A stretch of 64,000 bases of DNA from contig NZ_CP117520.1 of assembly GCF_028621895.1 (NCBI RefSeq), positions 2,418,001 through 2,482,000 on the forward strand. The letters run 5' to 3'. The notes beneath the pieces were generated by a model that was not told the DNA's origin, did no database searches, and worked only from the letters and a program-made list of their open reading frames with translations. Source of the DNA: Acinetobacter sp. GSS19. GTDB lineage: Bacteria > Pseudomonadota > Gammaproteobacteria > Pseudomonadales > Moraxellaceae. Position 1 is the first letter of the stretch; each line of letters begins with the position of its first letter. Shown here piece by piece: positions 1,474 to 42,628 of the stretch. Made by a program: the position numbers and the translations under genes.

Positions 1474-2868
1474 TTAACTTTGCAATAATCTGAGCAGATT
1501 TTTGTAGTCTTCGTTAAAGATCGGATCTTCTTCACGCAGACTTTGAACTTTCTCACAGGCATGCATCACGGTACTGTGATCGCGACCACCAAATGCCATA
1601 CCAATTTCAGGAAAACTATCGCCCGTTAATTCGCGCGCAAGACCCATTGCTAATTGGCGGGGACGTGCATAAATTCGGGTTCGTTTGGGACCGACCAGTT
1701 CTTTATGTGGAATTCGGAAATACTCACTAACGACTCGCTGGATATTTTCCACACTAATGGTTCGTGCACGAATCGCCAAAACATCTTTAAGAGATTCACG
1801 GACGACATCCAGGTCAATCGGTGTACCCTTAAAACGGGAAATCGCGACCACCTTATTGAGTGCCCCTTCCAGTTCGCGCACATTCGCAACAACTTGCTGA
1901 GCAATAAATAATGCACAGTTACGCGGCAAATCGATACCGTTGCTTTCAGCCTTTTTCAACAAGATTTCAATACGCGTTTCAATATCTGGGGGTTCAACAC
2001 CCACGGATAAGCCCCAAGAGAAACGTGAAACCAAACGAGGATCGAGTTCCGTCAATTCTTTTGGATAACGATCTGAAGTTAAAATAATCTGCTTAGATTC
2101 ATCCAGCAAGGCATTAAAGGTATAAAAGAATTCAACCAGACTCGCCTCTTTACCAGCCAAGAGATGAATATCATCAACGAGTAACAAATCTAGAGAACGG
2201 CAATTTTTCTTAAATTCTTCAACCTTGCCCTTTTGCAAAGAACTGACAAAATCCTGTACAAAGCTTTCAGCGGTCATATACATGACGCGTGCATTCGGTT
2301 TTGCCTGTAATAAAGCATTACCAACAGCCTGCATCAAGTGGGTTTTACCCAAACCGGTCGGACCATATAAAAACAAAGGATTATGTTGTGAAGCCCCCAG
2401 CTGGGTTAAAACTTTACGGCAGGTTTCCGCAGCCATCTGGTTAGAACGGCCTTCAACAAAGAGAGAAAAAGTAAAAAGTGGATTCAATAAACGTTTTTTA
2501 TTGATTTTATTTCCTGCGATGTCCACTTCTTTGTCTTTTTTGACTTTAGGTACCACAACTGGAGCAGGTGCAGCGGTTTCCAAAGCTGCTGTAGTCGTGG
2601 CAGGTTGTTCTGAAGCCGACAAAATAGCACCCGGACGTGAATCAACCAAGATTTCTACATGGCGGATACGGCCTTCAGAAAGCTGTTCAGCCAAAATCGT
2701 AATCAGTTCCAGATGATGTTCTTGAATATAGCGCGTCCAATAAGGATTTGGCGCATAGAGTCTTAAAGTATCTTCAAGTTCTTCAGCAACCAGAGGACGA
2801 ATCCACATCGCAAAGACATTATCAGAGAGCTCTTGTCGCAAGCGAGTTAAGCAGTCCGTCCAAAGCAT
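1474..2868 (-). CDS. dnaA: Chromosomal replication initiator protein DnaA
   Basis: DnaA binds DnaA boxes at oriC, oligomerises with ATP and melts the origin. The 464 residues show all four domains: an N-terminal DnaB-interaction domain (about 1-75), a variable Ala/Pro-rich linker (about 80-115), an AAA+ domain with Walker A GPTGLGKT (169-176) and Walker B VDDIH (231-235), and a C-terminal DNA-binding domain with the signature GGRDHSTV. The start MLWTDCLTRLRQELSDN is as in Acinetobacter. It is transcribed away from the adjacent oriC. The leader carries a terminator-like hairpin (2902-2932), which could attenuate expression. Confidence 0.98.
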   Translation of the reverse strand: MLWTDCLTRLRQELSDNVFAMWIRPLVAEELEDTLRLYAPNPYWTRYIQEHHLELITILAEQLSEGRIRHVEILVDSRPGAILSASEQPATTTAALETAAPAPVVVPKVKKDKEVDIAGNKINKKRLLNPLFTFSLFVEGRSNQMAAETCRKVLTQLGASQHNPLFLYGPTGLGKTHLMQAVGNALLQAKPNARVMYMTAESFVQDFVSSLQKGKVEEFKKNCRSLDLLLVDDIHLLAGKEASLVEFFYTFNALLDESKQIILTSDRYPKELTELDPRLVSRFSWGLSVGVEPPDIETRIEILLKKAESNGIDLPRNCALFIAQQVVANVRELEGALNKVVAISRFKGTPIDLDVVRESLKDVLAIRARTISVENIQRVVSEYFRIPHKELVGPKRTRIYARPRQLAMGLARELTGDSFPEIGMAFGGRDHSTVMHACEKVQSLREEDPIFNEDYKNLLRLLQS

Positions 2869-2901
2869 GTGAAACCCCTGTTTATGTGATTATTTAAATT
2901 T

Positions 2902-2932
2902 AAAAAAGCGACCACCCCATAGAAGGGGTCGC
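2902..2932 (-). terminator. Terminator-like hairpin in the dnaA leader
   Basis: Read on the minus strand, GCGACC and GGTCGC arms with an inner CC/GG pairing are followed directly by six T residues, 33 bases before the dnaA start codon. On the plus strand no T-run follows, so the signal points towards dnaA. It could be an attenuator or a stop for transcription leaving oriC. Confidence 0.6.
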
Positions 2933-3330
2933 CATTCTAACCAAGTTATCCACATCTGTCATGATGAATTAAAGTGATTTCGACTAAAAAACAAACCAAT
3001 CACAAATAAATTTAAATTTAAACGCTGTGTGGATAAGTTTATCCGCAACCTGTGGATAAAATATAACATAAACTTATCCACAATCTATCAAAAAAATAAA
3101 AACACGGTTATCCACAATGTAGGTAGATGTTTTTTAAATTTAAAAATAGCTTTTCCACACAAAAAACGCATCCTAATAGTAATAAATTTAAATTTATAAA
3201 TTTGAATTTATTTATAAGAGGCTATCTGTTTGTGGATAACTTAAATATGAAATGAATTTAAATTTAAACTCTCGGAACAAAGTAAAAATAAATTTAACTA
3301 ACACTATCTATTGTGGATAAAACTGTTCAC
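2933..3330. other. Chromosomal replication origin oriC
   Basis: AT-rich 663-bp gap between dnaA and rpmH. Seven perfect 9-mer DnaA boxes (TTATCCACA or its complement) are visible at 2946-2954 (+), 3028-3036 (-), 3051-3059 (-), 3074-3082 (+), 3108-3116 (+), 3231-3239 (-) and 3312-3320 (-), with weaker ones at 3039-3047 (TTATCCGCA) and 3151-3159 (TTTTCCACA). Between them are repeated AAATTTAAATTT-type blocks (near 3006, 3130, 3185 and 3252) that are good candidates for the unwinding element. Position beside dnaA is the usual gammaproteobacterial arrangement. The exact unwinding site cannot be fixed by eye. Confidence 0.93.
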
Positions 3331-3463
3331 AAATCAAGTGATTTTTTAGAAATGAATAAGTTAGTGTGTGGGTAAATAATCTGACATCATTTAACTCAAT
3401 TCTAGACAAGGATCTCTATACATAAAAAATTTAACAGAAATACGTAACAAAACCGTGTTTTCA

Positions 3464-3492
3464 TTGACAGCGTAAACAATGCACAATACAAT
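3464..3492 (+). promoter_or_regulatory. Sigma-70 promoter of rpmH-rnpA
   Basis: Perfect -35 TTGACA (3464-3469), 17-base spacer, and -10 TACAAT (3487-3492), 39 bases upstream of the rpmH start codon. A GGAG ribosome-binding site follows at about 3521. Confidence 0.85.
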
Positions 3493-3531
3493 CGCGAACC
3501 TTTATAGAAAGATCATTTTTGGAGTTTCGAT

Positions 3532-11448: not shown

Positions 11449-11464
11449 TGTTCCACGTGAAACC
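11449..11464. promoter_or_regulatory. parS-like ParB-binding site (near match)
   Basis: TGTTCCACGTGAAACC begins right after the dmeF stop codon. It differs by two bases from the 16-base palindrome TGTTTCACGTGAAACA and by one from the Pseudomonas type TGTTCCACGTGGAACC. It is about 8 kb from oriC, where functional parS sites usually are. Confidence 0.6.
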
Positions 11465-19019: not shown

Positions 19020-20141
19020 ATGAATAAAACCATCGGTATTTTTGGTGGCGGCCAGTTGGGTCGTATGATGGCGCAAGCTGCATTACCACTGAATATTCAA
19101 TGTACCTTCTATGAAGCGAGTAATGACTGCCCTTCTGCAGCTTTAGGTCCAGTTTTCTCCAGTCAGACAGAAAATGGTTTGGCGGAATTTATGGCCAGTG
19201 CGGATGTCTTCAGTCTGGAATTTGAAAATACGCCGTTAGCTGATGTGGATGTTTTGACACAAAGCAAAACGTTGCATCCACCGCGTCAGGCATTGGCAAC
19301 TGCTCAAAACCGACTGCTGGAAAAAAGCCTGTTTGATCAGCTCGGAATTCCGGTTGCACCGTATCGTGCTGTAAATTCACTGGAAACTTTGCATGCCGCC
19401 GTGACTGAACTGGGTTTACCTTTAGTGCTAAAAACTGCGACAGGCGGTTATGATGGCAAAGGCCAGTTCGTATTGCGCACTCAGGATCAGATTGAGCAGG
19501 CTTGGGCAGAGCTTGGTCCTGCCGGTAGTCTGATTGCTGAAAGTTTTGTGAACTTTTCCCGTGAAGTTTCTATTATTGCGGTACGTGGACAAAATGGTGA
19601 AGTAAAAACCTGGCCATTGGCAGAAAACCATCACCATAATGGCATTCTGTCGCATTCGATTGTACCGGCACCAAATAGTGCGGATTTACAACCGTTTGCT
19701 CAAGAGTACATCACTCGCCTGCTCAATCACTTGAATTATGTGGGTGTATTGACTTTAGAGCTGTTTGTGACTGAAAAAGGCTTATATGCCAATGAAATGG
19801 CGCCACGTGTGCATAATTCCGGTCACTGGTCGATTGAAGGTGCTGTTTGTTCGCAGTTTGAAAACCACATTCGTGCCGTTGCTGGCCTGCCACTTGGCTC
19901 AACAGATGTGGTTCGTCCAACCGTGATGGTGAATATCATTGGTCAGCATCCGAAGTCTGAAGATGTATTGGCTTTAAATGGTGCCCATTTGCACTTGTAT
20001 AACAAAACTGAACGTCAAGGCCGTAAACTAGGTCATATTACTTTGATGCCTGTGGATAGCTCGGAATTAACCACTTTATGCCGTGCACTGGCGAAGATCC
20101 TGCCAGAACCATTGGCTTTGACTCAAGATATGAGCATCTAA
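19020..20141 (+). CDS. purK: 5-(carboxyamino)imidazole ribonucleotide synthase
   Basis: PurK uses ATP and bicarbonate to make N5-CAIR from AIR, feeding PurE. The 373-residue ATP-grasp enzyme begins MNKTIGIFGGGQLGRMMAQAA (Rossmann-like N-terminal domain), has the ATP-grasp loop VLKTATGGYDGKGQ (about 136-149), and the metal site region ELFVTEKGLYANEMAPRVHNSGHWS. Length is normal. It is the second gene of the purEK operon and ends 17 bases before a strong terminator. Confidence 0.97.
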   Translation: MNKTIGIFGGGQLGRMMAQAALPLNIQCTFYEASNDCPSAALGPVFSSQTENGLAEFMASADVFSLEFENTPLADVDVLTQSKTLHPPRQALATAQNRLLEKSLFDQLGIPVAPYRAVNSLETLHAAVTELGLPLVLKTATGGYDGKGQFVLRTQDQIEQAWAELGPAGSLIAESFVNFSREVSIIAVRGQNGEVKTWPLAENHHHNGILSHSIVPAPNSADLQPFAQEYITRLLNHLNYVGVLTLELFVTEKGLYANEMAPRVHNSGHWSIEGAVCSQFENHIRAVAGLPLGSTDVVRPTVMVNIIGQHPKSEDVLALNGAHLHLYNKTERQGRKLGHITLMPVDSSELTTLCRALAKILPEPLALTQDMSI

Positions 20142-20334: not shown

Positions 20335-20730
20335 TTTTTTTGAATTCAAAAAATATGTGGCTCGTTTGAATTTAAAATTCTCTTTTAAATTTAAAAGTCA
20401 GATTTGAATTTAAATGGTTCAATTTTTAAATTTAAACCTGAAATATGAATTTAAATAGCAGGATTTAAATTCATCTTTTTCTTGTTGGGTTGAGTTATCC
20501 ACATTTGGCAGGTGCTTTTCTGCCTAATTTGAATTTATAAACCTTAATTTGAATTCAAAATACATCCTTAATTGGGTTTTGAATTTAAAAACGTGGTTGT
20601 GGATATCTTTATTTGAATTTAAAAACGGAAAATGAATTTAAATTGACGCAAAATAAATTCAAATTTACCAATTCATCTCTGAACTCTCGTTAAATCCTGT
20701 TATGGTAAAGGTAAATTTGAATTTAAAGAT
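20335..20730. repeat. Cluster of GAATTTAAA repeats with a DnaA box, oriC-like in composition
   Basis: In about 390 bases there are eight exact GAATTTAAA nonamers (plus strand from 20368, 20406, 20447, 20581, 20615, 20634, 20719; minus strand 20464-20472), two AAATTTAAA (20387, 20428) and at least four one- or two-base variants (20342, 20531, 20551, about 20654). A perfect DnaA box TTATCCACA is at 20495-20503 and a one-mismatch box TGTGGATAT at 20598-20606. The same AT motif recurs in oriC (e.g. 3254-3262). It ends against the start of the transglycosylase gene. Role unknown. Confidence 0.8.
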
Positions 20731-20733
20731 GTA

Positions 20734-22032
20734 GTGAAATCGATGAGACGTTTTATAGTCTTGTGTGCTTCAGGATTATTGTGTTGGACACACGCTCAGG
20801 CCGAATTAATCCTGAATGGCAAAACACTCAGCCAAAGTGATCTATTAGAAAATCCACGCACGACATCCGTGACAAATAATAATTTTCAGGCATGTTTGGC
20901 AGGGTTGAGTGATCAGGCAGTGGCCTCAGGGGTCGTGCCAAGCCGTTATGCCCAATACACACGTGATCTGACACCCGATTATTCAGTCATTGAAAAACTC
21001 AACTATCAACCGGAGTTTTCTACACCAATTTGGGATTACCTGTCCGGTCTGGTGGATGACGAACGGGTAGCTTTAGGGCAGCAAAAACTGGCACAGCACC
21101 GTGCGGTACTGAACCAGGTGGCACAGGTTTATGGTGTAGCGCCTGAAACGGTAGTCGCTGTTTGGGGTGTAGAAAGTAATTTTGGTGATATTGCTGGTAA
21201 GTATCCATTGTTACAGGCATTAGGCACGTTGAGTTGTGAAGGACGCCGTCAAAGTTATTTTCGTAGCGAGTTTTTTACCGCTATGCGAATTTTACAGCGA
21301 GGTGATGTCACGCAAGAGCAGTTACGTGGCTCTTGGGCTGGCGCATTTGGCCATACCCAATTTATGCCTTCGACCTATGAGCGCTTAGCAGTCGATTTTG
21401 ATGGAGATGGCCGACGCGATCTCGTCTCTAGCACTGCGGACGCTTTGGCCTCAACAGCCCATTTCTTGCAACAGGCAGGTTGGCAAAGCGGTATGCCGTG
21501 GGGTTTTGAAGTTAAATTGCCTGCGAATTTGGAGATACAAGGTGAGGGACGCCGTAATAAGAAAGCTTTGCGTTACTGGATAGATCAAGGTGTACTACGC
21601 GCCGATGGAAATACCTTATTGCAAGGTAACCTGTCTGAACAGACACCTGCCGGTCTAATGACGCCTGCCGGTACAAATGGACCAGCCTTTTTAGTTTTCA
21701 AAAATTTTGATGCCTTGTACAGCTATAATGCTGCTGAAAGTTATGCCTTGGCGATTGCCCATTTATCAGACCGTTTACGAGGACAAAGTGGTTTTGTTAC
21801 GCCGTGGCCGACAGATGATGCGGGAACTTCACGTGCAGAACGCCGTGAGATACAGCAGTATTTATTAAATAAAGGCTATGACATTGGTGAGGCAGATGGA
21901 TTGATCGGTGATAAAACCCGTCAAGCCATCCGTCAGGAGCAGTTGCGTTTAGGTTTAAACCCGACTGGACGGGCAGGCCAGCAGATTTTGCGTACTTTCA
22001 GAAATGAAAATGCCCAACGTTTGATGCAGTAA
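20734..22032 (+). CDS. Lytic murein transglycosylase, MltB family, with peptidoglycan-binding domain
   Basis: Cuts the glycan strand of peptidoglycan, forming 1,6-anhydro ends. The 432-residue protein has a signal peptide (cut after HAQA), the SLT_2/MltB catalytic domain with the glutamate in VWGVESNFG (Glu147) and AGAFGHTQFMPSTYERLAVD, and a C-terminal PG_binding_1 domain (about 370-425, YDIGEADGLIGDKTRQAI). No lipobox is seen, so it is periplasmic rather than anchored. The GTG at 20734 and the ATG at 20743 are both possible starts. Its upstream DNA is the GAATTTAAA cluster, which must contain or overlap its promoter. Confidence 0.9.
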   Translation: MKSMRRFIVLCASGLLCWTHAQAELILNGKTLSQSDLLENPRTTSVTNNNFQACLAGLSDQAVASGVVPSRYAQYTRDLTPDYSVIEKLNYQPEFSTPIWDYLSGLVDDERVALGQQKLAQHRAVLNQVAQVYGVAPETVVAVWGVESNFGDIAGKYPLLQALGTLSCEGRRQSYFRSEFFTAMRILQRGDVTQEQLRGSWAGAFGHTQFMPSTYERLAVDFDGDGRRDLVSSTADALASTAHFLQQAGWQSGMPWGFEVKLPANLEIQGEGRRNKKALRYWIDQGVLRADGNTLLQGNLSEQTPAGLMTPAGTNGPAFLVFKNFDALYSYNAAESYALAIAHLSDRLRGQSGFVTPWPTDDAGTSRAERREIQQYLLNKGYDIGEADGLIGDKTRQAIRQEQLRLGLNPTGRAGQQILRTFRNENAQRLMQ

Positions 22033-36858: not shown

Positions 36859-37554
36859 TTAGAAATGGGCATCTAAACCGATATATGGTCCTTTGAATTC
36901 AAACTTACGTTCATTGTTGCTGTTTTTATCCATTTCAATATTTAGGGCTCGATAGCCCACTTTAGCACCTAGATCGACCAAAAGATTGTCGACAAAGTTG
37001 TATTTAATTTCCGCCTGGGTATCTGAGATGCGGGTATCGTCATAATCCGTGAGCAGAGTTTCACTGCTGATACTCCAGCCGGTAAATGGAAGTTTAGCGG
37101 TCACTGAGCCGTATAACATTGGATAGGTTTCATCAATTTTACTTTGAGTAAGGCCATTGACTGTAATATCCGCATTGATTTGTTTCGCAGCGATACCAAG
37201 ATCTGCGCTCACGACATTATCGAGTAATTCGTAGTAAAGAATGTAGTCAGCATTTTCCATTTGAATGTCATAGACAGGTGTATTGGCAATCTGCTGTTCA
37301 GTCTGGTTATCGATTTTGCTATAACGCAATTTGACATTGGGTAATAATGGAACAGGGTGTTCAATGGCCAGCGTCACTTGTGCTGAACCTTTTTGATCTA
37401 AGGAGAGATCACTTTGGCTTTGTGGGGCCATATTGGCATCGCCTTCTGTATACCAGTAGTCAACGCTGCCTTTGACGGCCACAAGATCGGCTTGAGCTAA
37501 AGAACTGCAACTAAGGAGGGCTGCGATGCTGAGGAAAGTCCATGTTTTATGCAT
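36859..37554 (-). CDS. TIGR04219-family outer membrane beta-barrel protein
   Basis: A 231-residue exported protein with signal peptide (MHKTWTFLSIAALLSCSSLAQA, split here as about 1-22) and alternating-pattern beta strands ending in GPYIGLDAHF with a terminal phenylalanine, the usual outer-membrane barrel signal. The opening DLVAVKGSVDYWYTEGDANM and the closing strand resemble the TIGR04219 family of small barrels found in Acinetobacter and relatives; their function is unknown. It is a single gene with a good terminator. Confidence 0.85.
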   Translation of the reverse strand: MHKTWTFLSIAALLSCSSLAQADLVAVKGSVDYWYTEGDANMAPQSQSDLSLDQKGSAQVTLAIEHPVPLLPNVKLRYSKIDNQTEQQIANTPVYDIQMENADYILYYELLDNVVSADLGIAAKQINADITVNGLTQSKIDETYPMLYGSVTAKLPFTGWSISSETLLTDYDDTRISDTQAEIKYNFVDNLLVDLGAKVGYRALNIEMDKNSNNERKFEFKGPYIGLDAHF

Positions 37555-41323: not shown

Positions 41324-42628
41324 TTAGCTCACTTTCTGGATCAGGCAATAAAAGAAGCCGTCACCACCTTGGGCTGTAGGCAGTAACTGTCGGCCATGCG
41401 TCTGTTCAATGCCCCAAGCGGCGTCGATTTTAATTTCTTTGGCGTCTAGATGTTCAGCAAAGAAATTTTGCATTTGCTGTTCATTTTCCGCTTTCAAAAT
41501 CGAACAGGTGATATAGAGCAAATACCCCCCCACTTTCAGCTGTTGCCACATGTGTCGCAAAATCTGCTGTTGCAGTTCGATGGTTTGTGCGATGTCGCTG
41601 GACTGGCGTAACAGGCGGATATCTGGATGGCGACGCAGGACGCCAATGGCAGAGCAGGGTGCATCCAGCACAATACAGTCTAGCGCTGCTGGCGCAGTCC
41701 ATTCGGTTGCATCTGCAGCCACAATTTCGACCTCTGTACCTGTCGTTAACTGTAAGCGTTCCAGATTTTCGGAAACTCGCAGTAAACGTTTGGCATCCTG
41801 ATCAAGCGCCGTGAGTTGCGCTAGATTGTATTTTTCCAGTAGATGGGCAGTTTTCCCACCTGGTGCCGCACAGGCATCGACCACGGTTTTACCGGTTAAA
41901 TCCGGCAGGATTTGCGCACAGAGCTGTGCATGTTCATCCTGTACCGAAAACCAGCCTTGTTCATAGCCGGGAAGTTCACTGATTTGTACCGATTGCTCCA
42001 GTACAATTCCGACCGGTGAATAGGTGCAAGCGCGTGCCTGAATGTCTAGGCCTTGTAGTTTATTCAGGTAGGCATCCCGACCAATCTGGCGCTGGTTAAT
42101 ACGTAGCGTGAGTGGTGCAACCTGTTTTAACTCCTGACACAGGTGAGCAATCTGTTCAGGCCAGTCCTTTTTTAGACGTTTATACAGCCAGCTTGGCAGA
42201 CCATGGGCTTGCTGTAAGGCATTCTGGAAATCAGATGTTTCACGTGAAACACGACGCAGAATGGCATTCACAACACCACCGAGGGCCTGAAAACCTAACT
42301 GTTTAGTGGCATCGACAGTTTCGGAAATCGCAGCGTGCGGGGCAATGCGGGTGCAAAGCAACTGATACAAACCCACATAGAGGCAGGTTTCGACGGTTTC
42401 ATTATTTAGCGGCTTGACTAGTAATGGTAGGGTAATGCTTTTCAGCGCGAACCACTGACGCAGGCTGCCCAGCACTAACTCATGGAACAGGGCACGATCA
42501 CGTTCGTTCACTTTAGCTAAGTGCAGTGGAAGAATGCTGGATAGTGACTGGCCTTGCTGGACGGCGAGCAAGGTACGAATCACTTGTCCACGTAAATTGA
42601 GATGTGATGAGGATTCAGGCTGATTCAT
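41324..42628 (-). CDS. rsmB: 16S rRNA (cytosine(967)-C(5))-methyltransferase
   Basis: RsmB (Sun/Fmu) methylates C967 of 16S rRNA. The 434-residue protein has an N-terminal NusB-like domain (about 15-140) and a C-terminal SAM methyltransferase with DACAAPGGKTAHLLE, the catalytic DAPCSAIGVLR and the second cysteine in ITCSILKAENE. A longer frame upstream is rejected because the ATG at 42628 overlaps the fmt stop (ATGA) and gives MNQPESSSHL. fmt and rsmB are therefore translationally coupled. A perfect parS palindrome lies within the coding sequence. Confidence 0.95.
   Translation of the reverse strand: MNQPESSSHLNLRGQVIRTLLAVQQGQSLSSILPLHLAKVNERDRALFHELVLGSLRQWFALKSITLPLLVKPLNNETVETCLYVGLYQLLCTRIAPHAAISETVDATKQLGFQALGGVVNAILRRVSRETSDFQNALQQAHGLPSWLYKRLKKDWPEQIAHLCQELKQVAPLTLRINQRQIGRDAYLNKLQGLDIQARACTYSPVGIVLEQSVQISELPGYEQGWFSVQDEHAQLCAQILPDLTGKTVVDACAAPGGKTAHLLEKYNLAQLTALDQDAKRLLRVSENLERLQLTTGTEVEIVAADATEWTAPAALDCIVLDAPCSAIGVLRRHPDIRLLRQSSDIAQTIELQQQILRHMWQQLKVGGYLLYITCSILKAENEQQMQNFFAEHLDAKEIKIDAAWGIEQTHGRQLLPTAQGGDGFFYCLIQKVS
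42236..42251. promoter_or_regulatory. parS: parS site, perfect ParB-binding palindrome
   Basis: TGTTTCACGTGAAACA, a perfect 16-base palindrome identical to the conserved bacterial parS sequence, inside rsmB. It lies about 39 kb from oriC. ParB binds such sites to organise and segregate the origin region. A chance match of 16 bases is unlikely. Confidence 0.88.

Follow-up and report, generated by a model that had tools for sequence, protein, structure and literature searches.

An Array of a 12-bp Palindrome with DnaA Boxes Near oriC Is Conserved in Acinetobacter and May Help Control Chromosome Replication

Results

The Array and Its Neighbors

The window analyzed here (64,000 bp of the Acinetobacter sp. 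GSS19 chromosome) contains a gap between purK (19020..20141, plus strand, with ATP-grasp and PurK_C domains) and a gene for a lytic murein transglycosylase of the MltB_2 subfamily (20743..22032, plus strand, with TIGR02283 and SLT_2; the ORF start may be 20734), and in this gap lies a dense palindrome array of 389 bp (20339..20727). By eye, a terminator-like hairpin separates purK from the array. An earlier note on this DNA had counted eight copies of one AT-rich nonamer and two of another between the two genes, and our recount agrees: within 20335-20735, GAATTTAAA occurs seven times on the plus strand and once on the minus strand (TTTAAATTC at 20464), and AAATTTAAA occurs twice. What that note overlooked is a strict palindrome of 12 bp built around RAATTY: when all copies are compared, the nonamers prove to be pieces of a single repeat unit, TTTRAATTYAAA.

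The array holds nine exact 12-mers, in three spellings: TTTGAATTCAAA (copy 1, 20339..20350, and copy 6, 20548..20559), TTTGAATTTAAA (copy 2, 20365..20376; copy 4, 20403..20414; copy 7, 20578..20589; copy 8, 20612..20623; copy 9, 20716..20727) and TTTAAATTTAAA (copy 3, 20384..20395, and copy 5, 20425..20436). Among them stand degenerate copies at 20444..20455 (TATGAATTTAAA, whose second base is changed from T to A, the commonest single change among the relatives), 20464..20475 (TTTAAATTCATC), 20528..20539 (TTTGAATTTATA) and 20631..20642 (AATGAATTTAAA). The last exact copy lies shortly 5' of the transglycosylase start and 3' of a promoter-like TATGGT (20701-20706). Both DnaA boxes reported before are where they were said to be: a perfect one, TTATCCACA, at 20495..20503 on the plus strand, and one with a single mismatch at 20598..20606 on the minus strand (reading TGTGGATAT on the plus strand), inverted relative to the first and 103 bp away. 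No other gap in the window had seemed so dense, and counts of the core bear this out, with 17 RAATTY per 400 bp in the array, 10 at oriC and at most 6 elsewhere, the window mean being 0.87.

The Same Palindrome at oriC

The oriC region occupies the gap between dnaA (1474..2868, minus strand) and rpmH (plus strand) at 2869..3530, and carries 7 perfect DnaA boxes and four 12-mers (2893, 3011, 3133 and 3257), the first of which (2893-2904) is about 30 bp before the dnaA start codon. A tetrad of RAATTY sites at 3184-3209 sits inside an AT-rich segment that is probably the unwinding segment. AAATTTAAA or GAATTTAAA is found at seven oriC positions (2896, 3008, 3014, 3136, 3184, 3254 and 3260), in keeping with the earlier observation that the AT motif recurs among the DnaA boxes there. 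This placement is common in the genus: of 31 Acinetobacter oriC gaps, 22 have a 12-mer no more than 70 bp from the dnaA start, and the RAATTY sites of oriC form a tight group in the AT-rich segment, with 12-mers also among the DnaA boxes in Acinetobacter and in a sister genus (g10).

The window contains 14 12-mers: nine in the array, four at oriC and one at 36892. In the whole genome (a single contig of 2,586,360 bp) there are 17, against 5 for a reversed-pattern control, with nine in the array, four at oriC and four elsewhere; thus 13 of the 17 copies are found in two short places 17 kb apart. These counts contradict the notion that such density might be common genome-wide. Across 60 Acinetobacter genomes, the window's included, the 12-mer outnumbers its reversed-pattern control in 59 (the other has 15 against 19), and the larger genomes have many 12-mers outside oriC and the array.

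Conservation of the Array

Public bacterial genomes were scanned with the transglycosylase, and the best 80 loci were kept. At least four exact 12-mers (range 4-15) lie within 1200 bp upstream of the transglycosylase gene in 73 of these best 80 loci, or in 74 with locus L088. The earlier note had left it to close relatives to show whether the cluster is kept upstream of this gene, and it is, in Acinetobacter as well as in the sister genus. The remaining DNA of the best 80 loci holds only 18 12-mers, of which 15 are array copies displaced in L088 and L099: ten 12-mers in L088 lie beyond an inserted element with an rve-type transposase, and 5 of the 11 in L099 are displaced by an insertion with a DDE transposase. 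The two transposase genes (L088:8868-9902 and L099:8715-9671, which we take to be IS30-like and IS5-like, respectively) are within the arrays, with 12-mers flanking both sides.

Over the 74 arrays made up of the 73 loci and the window, the mean is 9.9 12-mers per array, against 0.019 expected from a Markov model of such gaps, and there are 72 distinct spacing patterns; the units are therefore kept while the spacers turn over. The 71 loci used for this comparison (L088 and L099 left out) contain 695 exact 12-mers, and in these loci single-mismatch 12-mers are rare, save for those in which the second base is changed from T to A, or the mirror change. RAATTY is the least varied part of the unit, with 17 single mismatches in the core compared to 145 in the flanks. 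One A. baumannii chromosome carries 12 copies of the 12-mer. In the one g10 genome read, the same two genes flank an array of six 12-mers, with a RAATTY count of 16 in 400 bp and a pair of DnaA boxes inverted relative to each other; in the one genome read of g12, an enzyme-negative genus (see below), purK is present and no 12-mer was found in the 40 kb read.

DnaA boxes, too, are almost always present. At least one perfect box is present in 73 of the 74 arrays (two in 45, three in 13 and four in 2), with a mean of 2.0 per array against 0.007 expected, and boxes with at most one mismatch average 3.0 against 0.25 expected. Successive perfect boxes have a median distance of 96 bp and a minimum of 11.

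Three further observations concern the spread and geometry of the arrays. Nearest-neighbor spacing of the 12-mers in arrays L046-L118 (L088 and L099 left out) is periodic at about 5.5-5.75 bp (R 0.39-0.40), compared to R 0.06 at 10.5 bp; it comes from related genomes, with a bootstrap over loci as the only chance control, and is only suggestive of phasing by half helical turns. Spread of the array on plasmids found no support: a distant-mode search returned four records from A. baumannii, with 20% of the query matched in each, of which three are chromosome-sized and the fourth is a 539 kb record carrying dnaA. Three PLSDB entries labeled as A. baumannii plasmids, NZ_CP104448.1, NZ_CP077849.1 and NZ_CP064203.1 (3.7-4.1 Mb), match dnaA and the array end and are, from their size, evidently chromosomes; among the three, the array itself was read only in NZ_CP104448.1. 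Three pattern matches in viral contigs look, by eye, like unrelated AT-rich sequence.

Distance from oriC and Loci Without the Array

Distance was taken from the array to the dnaA start in eleven genomes (in G006 and G055, to the nearest oriC 12-mer), and nine of them have the array at 14-26 kb from oriC: 13.8 kb in g10, and 16.9, 17.5, 18.9, 19.8, 19.9, 23.0, 23.8 and 25.6 kb in eight Acinetobacter. The other two are the genomes of L109 and L116, at 53.9 and 67.1 kb, where purK has moved about 7 kb away and is inverted and the array is still beside the transglycosylase gene; closeness of the array to oriC is thus not strict.

purK is within 3 kb of the transglycosylase gene in 71 of the best 80 loci. 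Six of the 80 have no 12-mer upstream of the transglycosylase gene, and purK adjoins that gene in none of the six: L119 (a divergent MAG), L120 (A. apis), L122 (A. qingfengensis), L123 (a Moraxellaceae MAG), and L124 and L125 (both A. sedimenti-like). In A. qingfengensis there are four extra 12-mers between the oriC boxes and rpmH, and the genomes of L124 (A. sedimenti) and L123 each have four between oriC and rpmH. Upstream of its transglycosylase gene A. apis has no palindromes, but keeps seven DnaA boxes with one mismatch (0.26 expected). Promoter-like TAAGGT or TATGGT was seen by eye 5' of the transglycosylase gene in many arrays and also in the array-less L123 and L124. In A. sedimenti (L185:1597-1685) and a Moraxellaceae MAG (L186:1443-1509), a single 12-mer stands 58-80 bp from a perfect DnaA box; the pair is upstream of purK, some 7 kb from oriC, and could be what is left of the array or an early form of it.

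An Adenine Methyltransferase in the Riboflavin Operon

Palindromes of the RAATTY kind, with adenines on both strands, are of the sort marked by adenine methyltransferases. The window's genome has one D12-class adenine methyltransferase gene (PF02086, 430 aa) and no methyltransferase of the PF01555 type. It sits in what reads as the riboflavin operon, nrdR-ribD-methyltransferase-ribE (the neighbor names agree with the A. baumannii annotation), and no restriction gene was seen in the 3.8 kb read around it. An ortholog, 76-95% identical, is present in all 24 genomes chosen from the best 80 loci, and FxGxG and DPPY motifs are found in all six methyltransferases checked. In A. baumannii, the protein whose gene lies between ribD and the riboflavin synthase gene shares 94% identity with it and is annotated as a DNA modification methylase. 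Like AamA (A1S_0222) of A. baumannii, the enzyme is an adenine methyltransferase of Acinetobacter, and we take the two to be probably the same protein. AamA reportedly methylates GAATTC and has been connected with motility; we know of no work linking it to oriC or to the array.

A family-level search (E 0.001) matched 58 of 149 genomes, including 41 Acinetobacter; the non-matching genomes, of which 20 of 91 were listed, may include further Acinetobacter. Identity is 83-84% in g10, where the enzyme is in the same riboflavin operon, and 48-57% in g5 and g13, where neither ribD nor ribE was found beside the enzyme in the genomes read; the weaker matches, mostly at 28-34%, are probably other enzymes. 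At the order level (E 1e-30), six of 390 genomes matched: three Acinetobacter and three others at 34-36% identity. Among solved structures, no relative was found by sequence at E up to 1.

RAATTY at oriC and Presence of the Enzyme

RAATTY was counted in the rpmH-dnaA gaps of 55 genomes and compared to dinucleotide shuffles. Left out were L248, L260, L267 and L272 (no readable rpmH-dnaA gap), L221, L235 and L239 (contig ending at or near dnaA) and three g3 genomes (no DnaA match); L186 (titled Moraxellaceae) and L273 (a divergent MAG titled Acinetobacter) were counted as Acinetobacter, and L240, with a 31% enzyme match and 9 RAATTY against 6.5, was placed in neither enzyme group. Acinetobacter gaps contain 326 RAATTY against 140 in the shuffles (z at least 2 in 26 of 31), g5 gaps 24 against 8.5 (2 of 4) and the g13 gap 13 against about 2 (1 of 1), although only 53% of this last gap is AT. 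The gaps of the enzyme-negative genera, 14 in all, sum to 27 against about 32, and only one of them reaches z of at least 2 (g8, z 2.2). In g10, the excess (29 against 20; z at least 2 in 0 of 4) is not significant despite the presence of both enzyme and 12-mers. The full 12-mer has a mean per gap of 3.2 in Acinetobacter, 2.2 in g10, 0 in g5, 1 in g13 and 0 in the enzyme-negative genera. Thus, g10 weakens the RAATTY part of the pattern and supports the 12-mer part.

When all 32 palindrome classes are ranked, RAATTY is clearly first only in g13 (ratio 7.4, the next class 2.0). In Acinetobacter gaps YTTAAR, which overlaps the 12-mer, is enriched equally (262 against 112), and some rare GC-rich classes have higher ratios (YCGCGR, 28 against 1.7, in Acinetobacter; YGGCCR, 7 against 0.8, in g5). 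In g5 most oriC RAATTY sites, and in g13 many of them, are within one AT-rich stretch. In a maximum likelihood tree of DnaA (with several long rows, and a root for drawing only), Acinetobacter groups with g10 (98/98) and g5 with g13 (100/99), the two groups standing apart from each other; g5 and g13 are sister to the enzyme-negative g2, g6 and g14 (100/100), and g12 joins that side (88/88). Taken together, the tree and the gap counts indicate that enzyme and RAATTY-rich oriC co-occur twice, on few independent events.

The other enzyme-bearing clade has a DnaA-box cluster of its own near oriC, in a coding region: six perfect boxes in about 105 bp within the mnmE CDS of G087, a g5 genome (L276:4375-4479; gene identified by Pfam MnmE_helical and TrmE_N), some 3.6 kb from the oriC boxes. 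Two DnaA boxes inside mnmE are also found at L279:15063-15083 (g13) and L285:7051-7071 (g5).

Discussion

The purK/transglycosylase gap of Acinetobacter holds a locus that, to our knowledge, has not been described: a dense, conserved array of one palindrome, with DnaA boxes, whose other dense location in the window's genome is oriC. Since the same palindrome lies inside oriC, the array may help to control chromosome replication. The reading we favor, at even odds, is that the array would be a conserved replication-control site working together with oriC. A putative dimeric DNA-binding “reader” would recognize TTTRAATTYAAA in the array as well as at oriC and ahead of dnaA, and DnaA would bind the array's boxes. 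The array would be copied soon after oriC, and its doubled sites would draw off DnaA and the reader, which would help prevent a second start or reset DnaA levels. Against this reading, two DnaA boxes are few for titration.

A further and less certain step brings in the D12 methyltransferase, which may methylate the RAATTY core, with access of the reader or of DnaA depending on that methylation; the site reported for AamA is GAATTC. Hemimethylated, newly copied RAATTY sites would then mark a fresh origin, as GATC sites and Dam do for SeqA in E. coli. In this fuller form, which we consider doubtful, Acinetobacter and its closest relatives would have an independent counterpart of Dam/SeqA: the methyltransferase would mark RAATTY, and a reader unrelated to SeqA would sense hemimethylation at oriC, dnaA and the array, competing or cooperating with DnaA at the array to time replication.

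It is a serious possibility, somewhat short of an even chance, that the 12-mer is unrelated to methylation, the RAATTY sites of oriC being simply part of an AT-rich unwinding segment and their match to a methyltransferase site coincidental. The crowding of g5 and g13 sites into one AT-rich stretch fits this, as do the enzyme-bearing g10 without a significant excess, the other palindrome classes enriched in Acinetobacter and g5, and an enzyme specificity that is only presumed. Yet the excess persists against shuffles that keep the dinucleotides, and g13 has its 13 sites, with RAATTY far ahead of the next palindrome class, in a gap that is little more than half AT. Further, the excess appears in two separate enzyme-bearing clades and is lacking from 13 of the 14 enzyme-free gaps, and the array itself consists of RAATTY without an AT-rich segment of the unwinding type.

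The main rivals to replication control are regulation of the transglycosylase gene and organization of the chromosome, and the three are not mutually exclusive. In the first, which we think unlikely, the array would be the regulatory region of the transglycosylase gene, its palindromes binding a repressor or activator and DnaA adding cell-cycle timing, with oriC as a second target. The nearest 12-mer does end within 40 bp of the gene start in 52 of the 74 loci with copies (median 18), in L109 and L116 the array kept its place beside the gene even at 54 and 67 kb from dnaA, and the DnaA-like boxes of A. apis are also upstream of this gene. However, 4-15 copies spread over as much as about 700 bp go far beyond the needs of a promoter, and a similar promoter-like core is seen by eye in the array-less L123 and L124. 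The other dense place for the 12-mer in the window's genome is oriC, and it is at oriC, not at the gene, that A. qingfengensis, one A. sedimenti and one MAG carry their extra copies.

Chromosome organization or segregation, to which we give a similarly small chance, would have an architectural protein bridge or anchor the array and oriC independently of ParB. A single palindrome densely clustered on the chromosome's oriC side would suit such a site, and so would the short spacing period, which is what would be expected of sites phased by half helical turns; parS, too, is located elsewhere. On the other hand, an organizer would not need the DnaA boxes that are near-constant in the arrays, and the spacing statistic comes from related genomes, with next to no signal at the full-turn period. 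That the array is chance, a simple repeat or mobile-element debris in an AT-rich gap is practically negligible: the AT-richness of the motif and the insertion elements within arrays (L088 and L099) speak for it, but genus-wide conservation, with copy numbers some hundreds of times the expectation in 74 loci and 72 distinct spacing patterns, refutes this reading.

The array can also be set against known systems, mainly those of E. coli. As with Dam, GATC and SeqA, adenine palindromes are clustered at oriC, in the AT-rich segment and near the dnaA start, and an adenine methyltransferase, here of the D12 class, is conserved in the lineage. In contrast to Dam/SeqA, the site is RAATTY within a 12-mer rather than GATC, SeqA (PF03925) was found in none of 60 Acinetobacter genomes (and was found in the E. 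coli control), a second dense array lies away from oriC, and the enzyme is in a riboflavin operon. The array may work in a similar way without being a member of the Dam/SeqA system.

Like datA, the array is a DnaA-box locus outside oriC that is replicated early when near oriC; unlike datA, it has about two perfect boxes rather than five, and its palindromes are absent from datA. The IHF consensus (WATCAANNNNTTR) is in 15 of 72 arrays (mean 0.22 against 0.19 expected) and is not in the window array, so that membership in datA fails on this lack of IHF enrichment. With DARS1 and DARS2 the array shares being a non-coding locus with DnaA boxes; a DARS core has three tight boxes, whereas the perfect boxes of the arrays are widely spaced and form no compact three-box core, and DARS membership fails on this spacing. 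Set beside oriC as a possible second origin, the window array counts one perfect box plus one near box; oriC has seven perfect boxes. Like the parS sites of ParB, the array's palindromes lie on the origin side of the chromosome, although the sequence is unrelated: no parS within three mismatches was found in 72 arrays, and a perfect parS (TGTTTCACGTGAAACA) is elsewhere in the window, at 42236-42251, about 39 kb from oriC, with a two-mismatch copy at 11449; the array as a ParB site was rejected. Thus, the earlier interpretation survives in part. Its link to oriC and DnaA is strengthened by the concentration of the genome's 12-mers in oriC and the array, by the perfect DnaA boxes in all but one of the arrays and by conservation of the array in Acinetobacter and g10, and its description of the locus as “datA/DARS-like” does not hold as membership of either system.

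The array is a small, widely conserved and deletable element, and its unit offers a 12-bp bait for the reader protein. Together with the candidate methyltransferase, it makes control of initiation in Acinetobacter, a genus without SeqA, testable in A. baylyi ADP1. Should the proposed tie to methylation hold, marking of the origin by adenine methylation would have evolved around another site and another reader.
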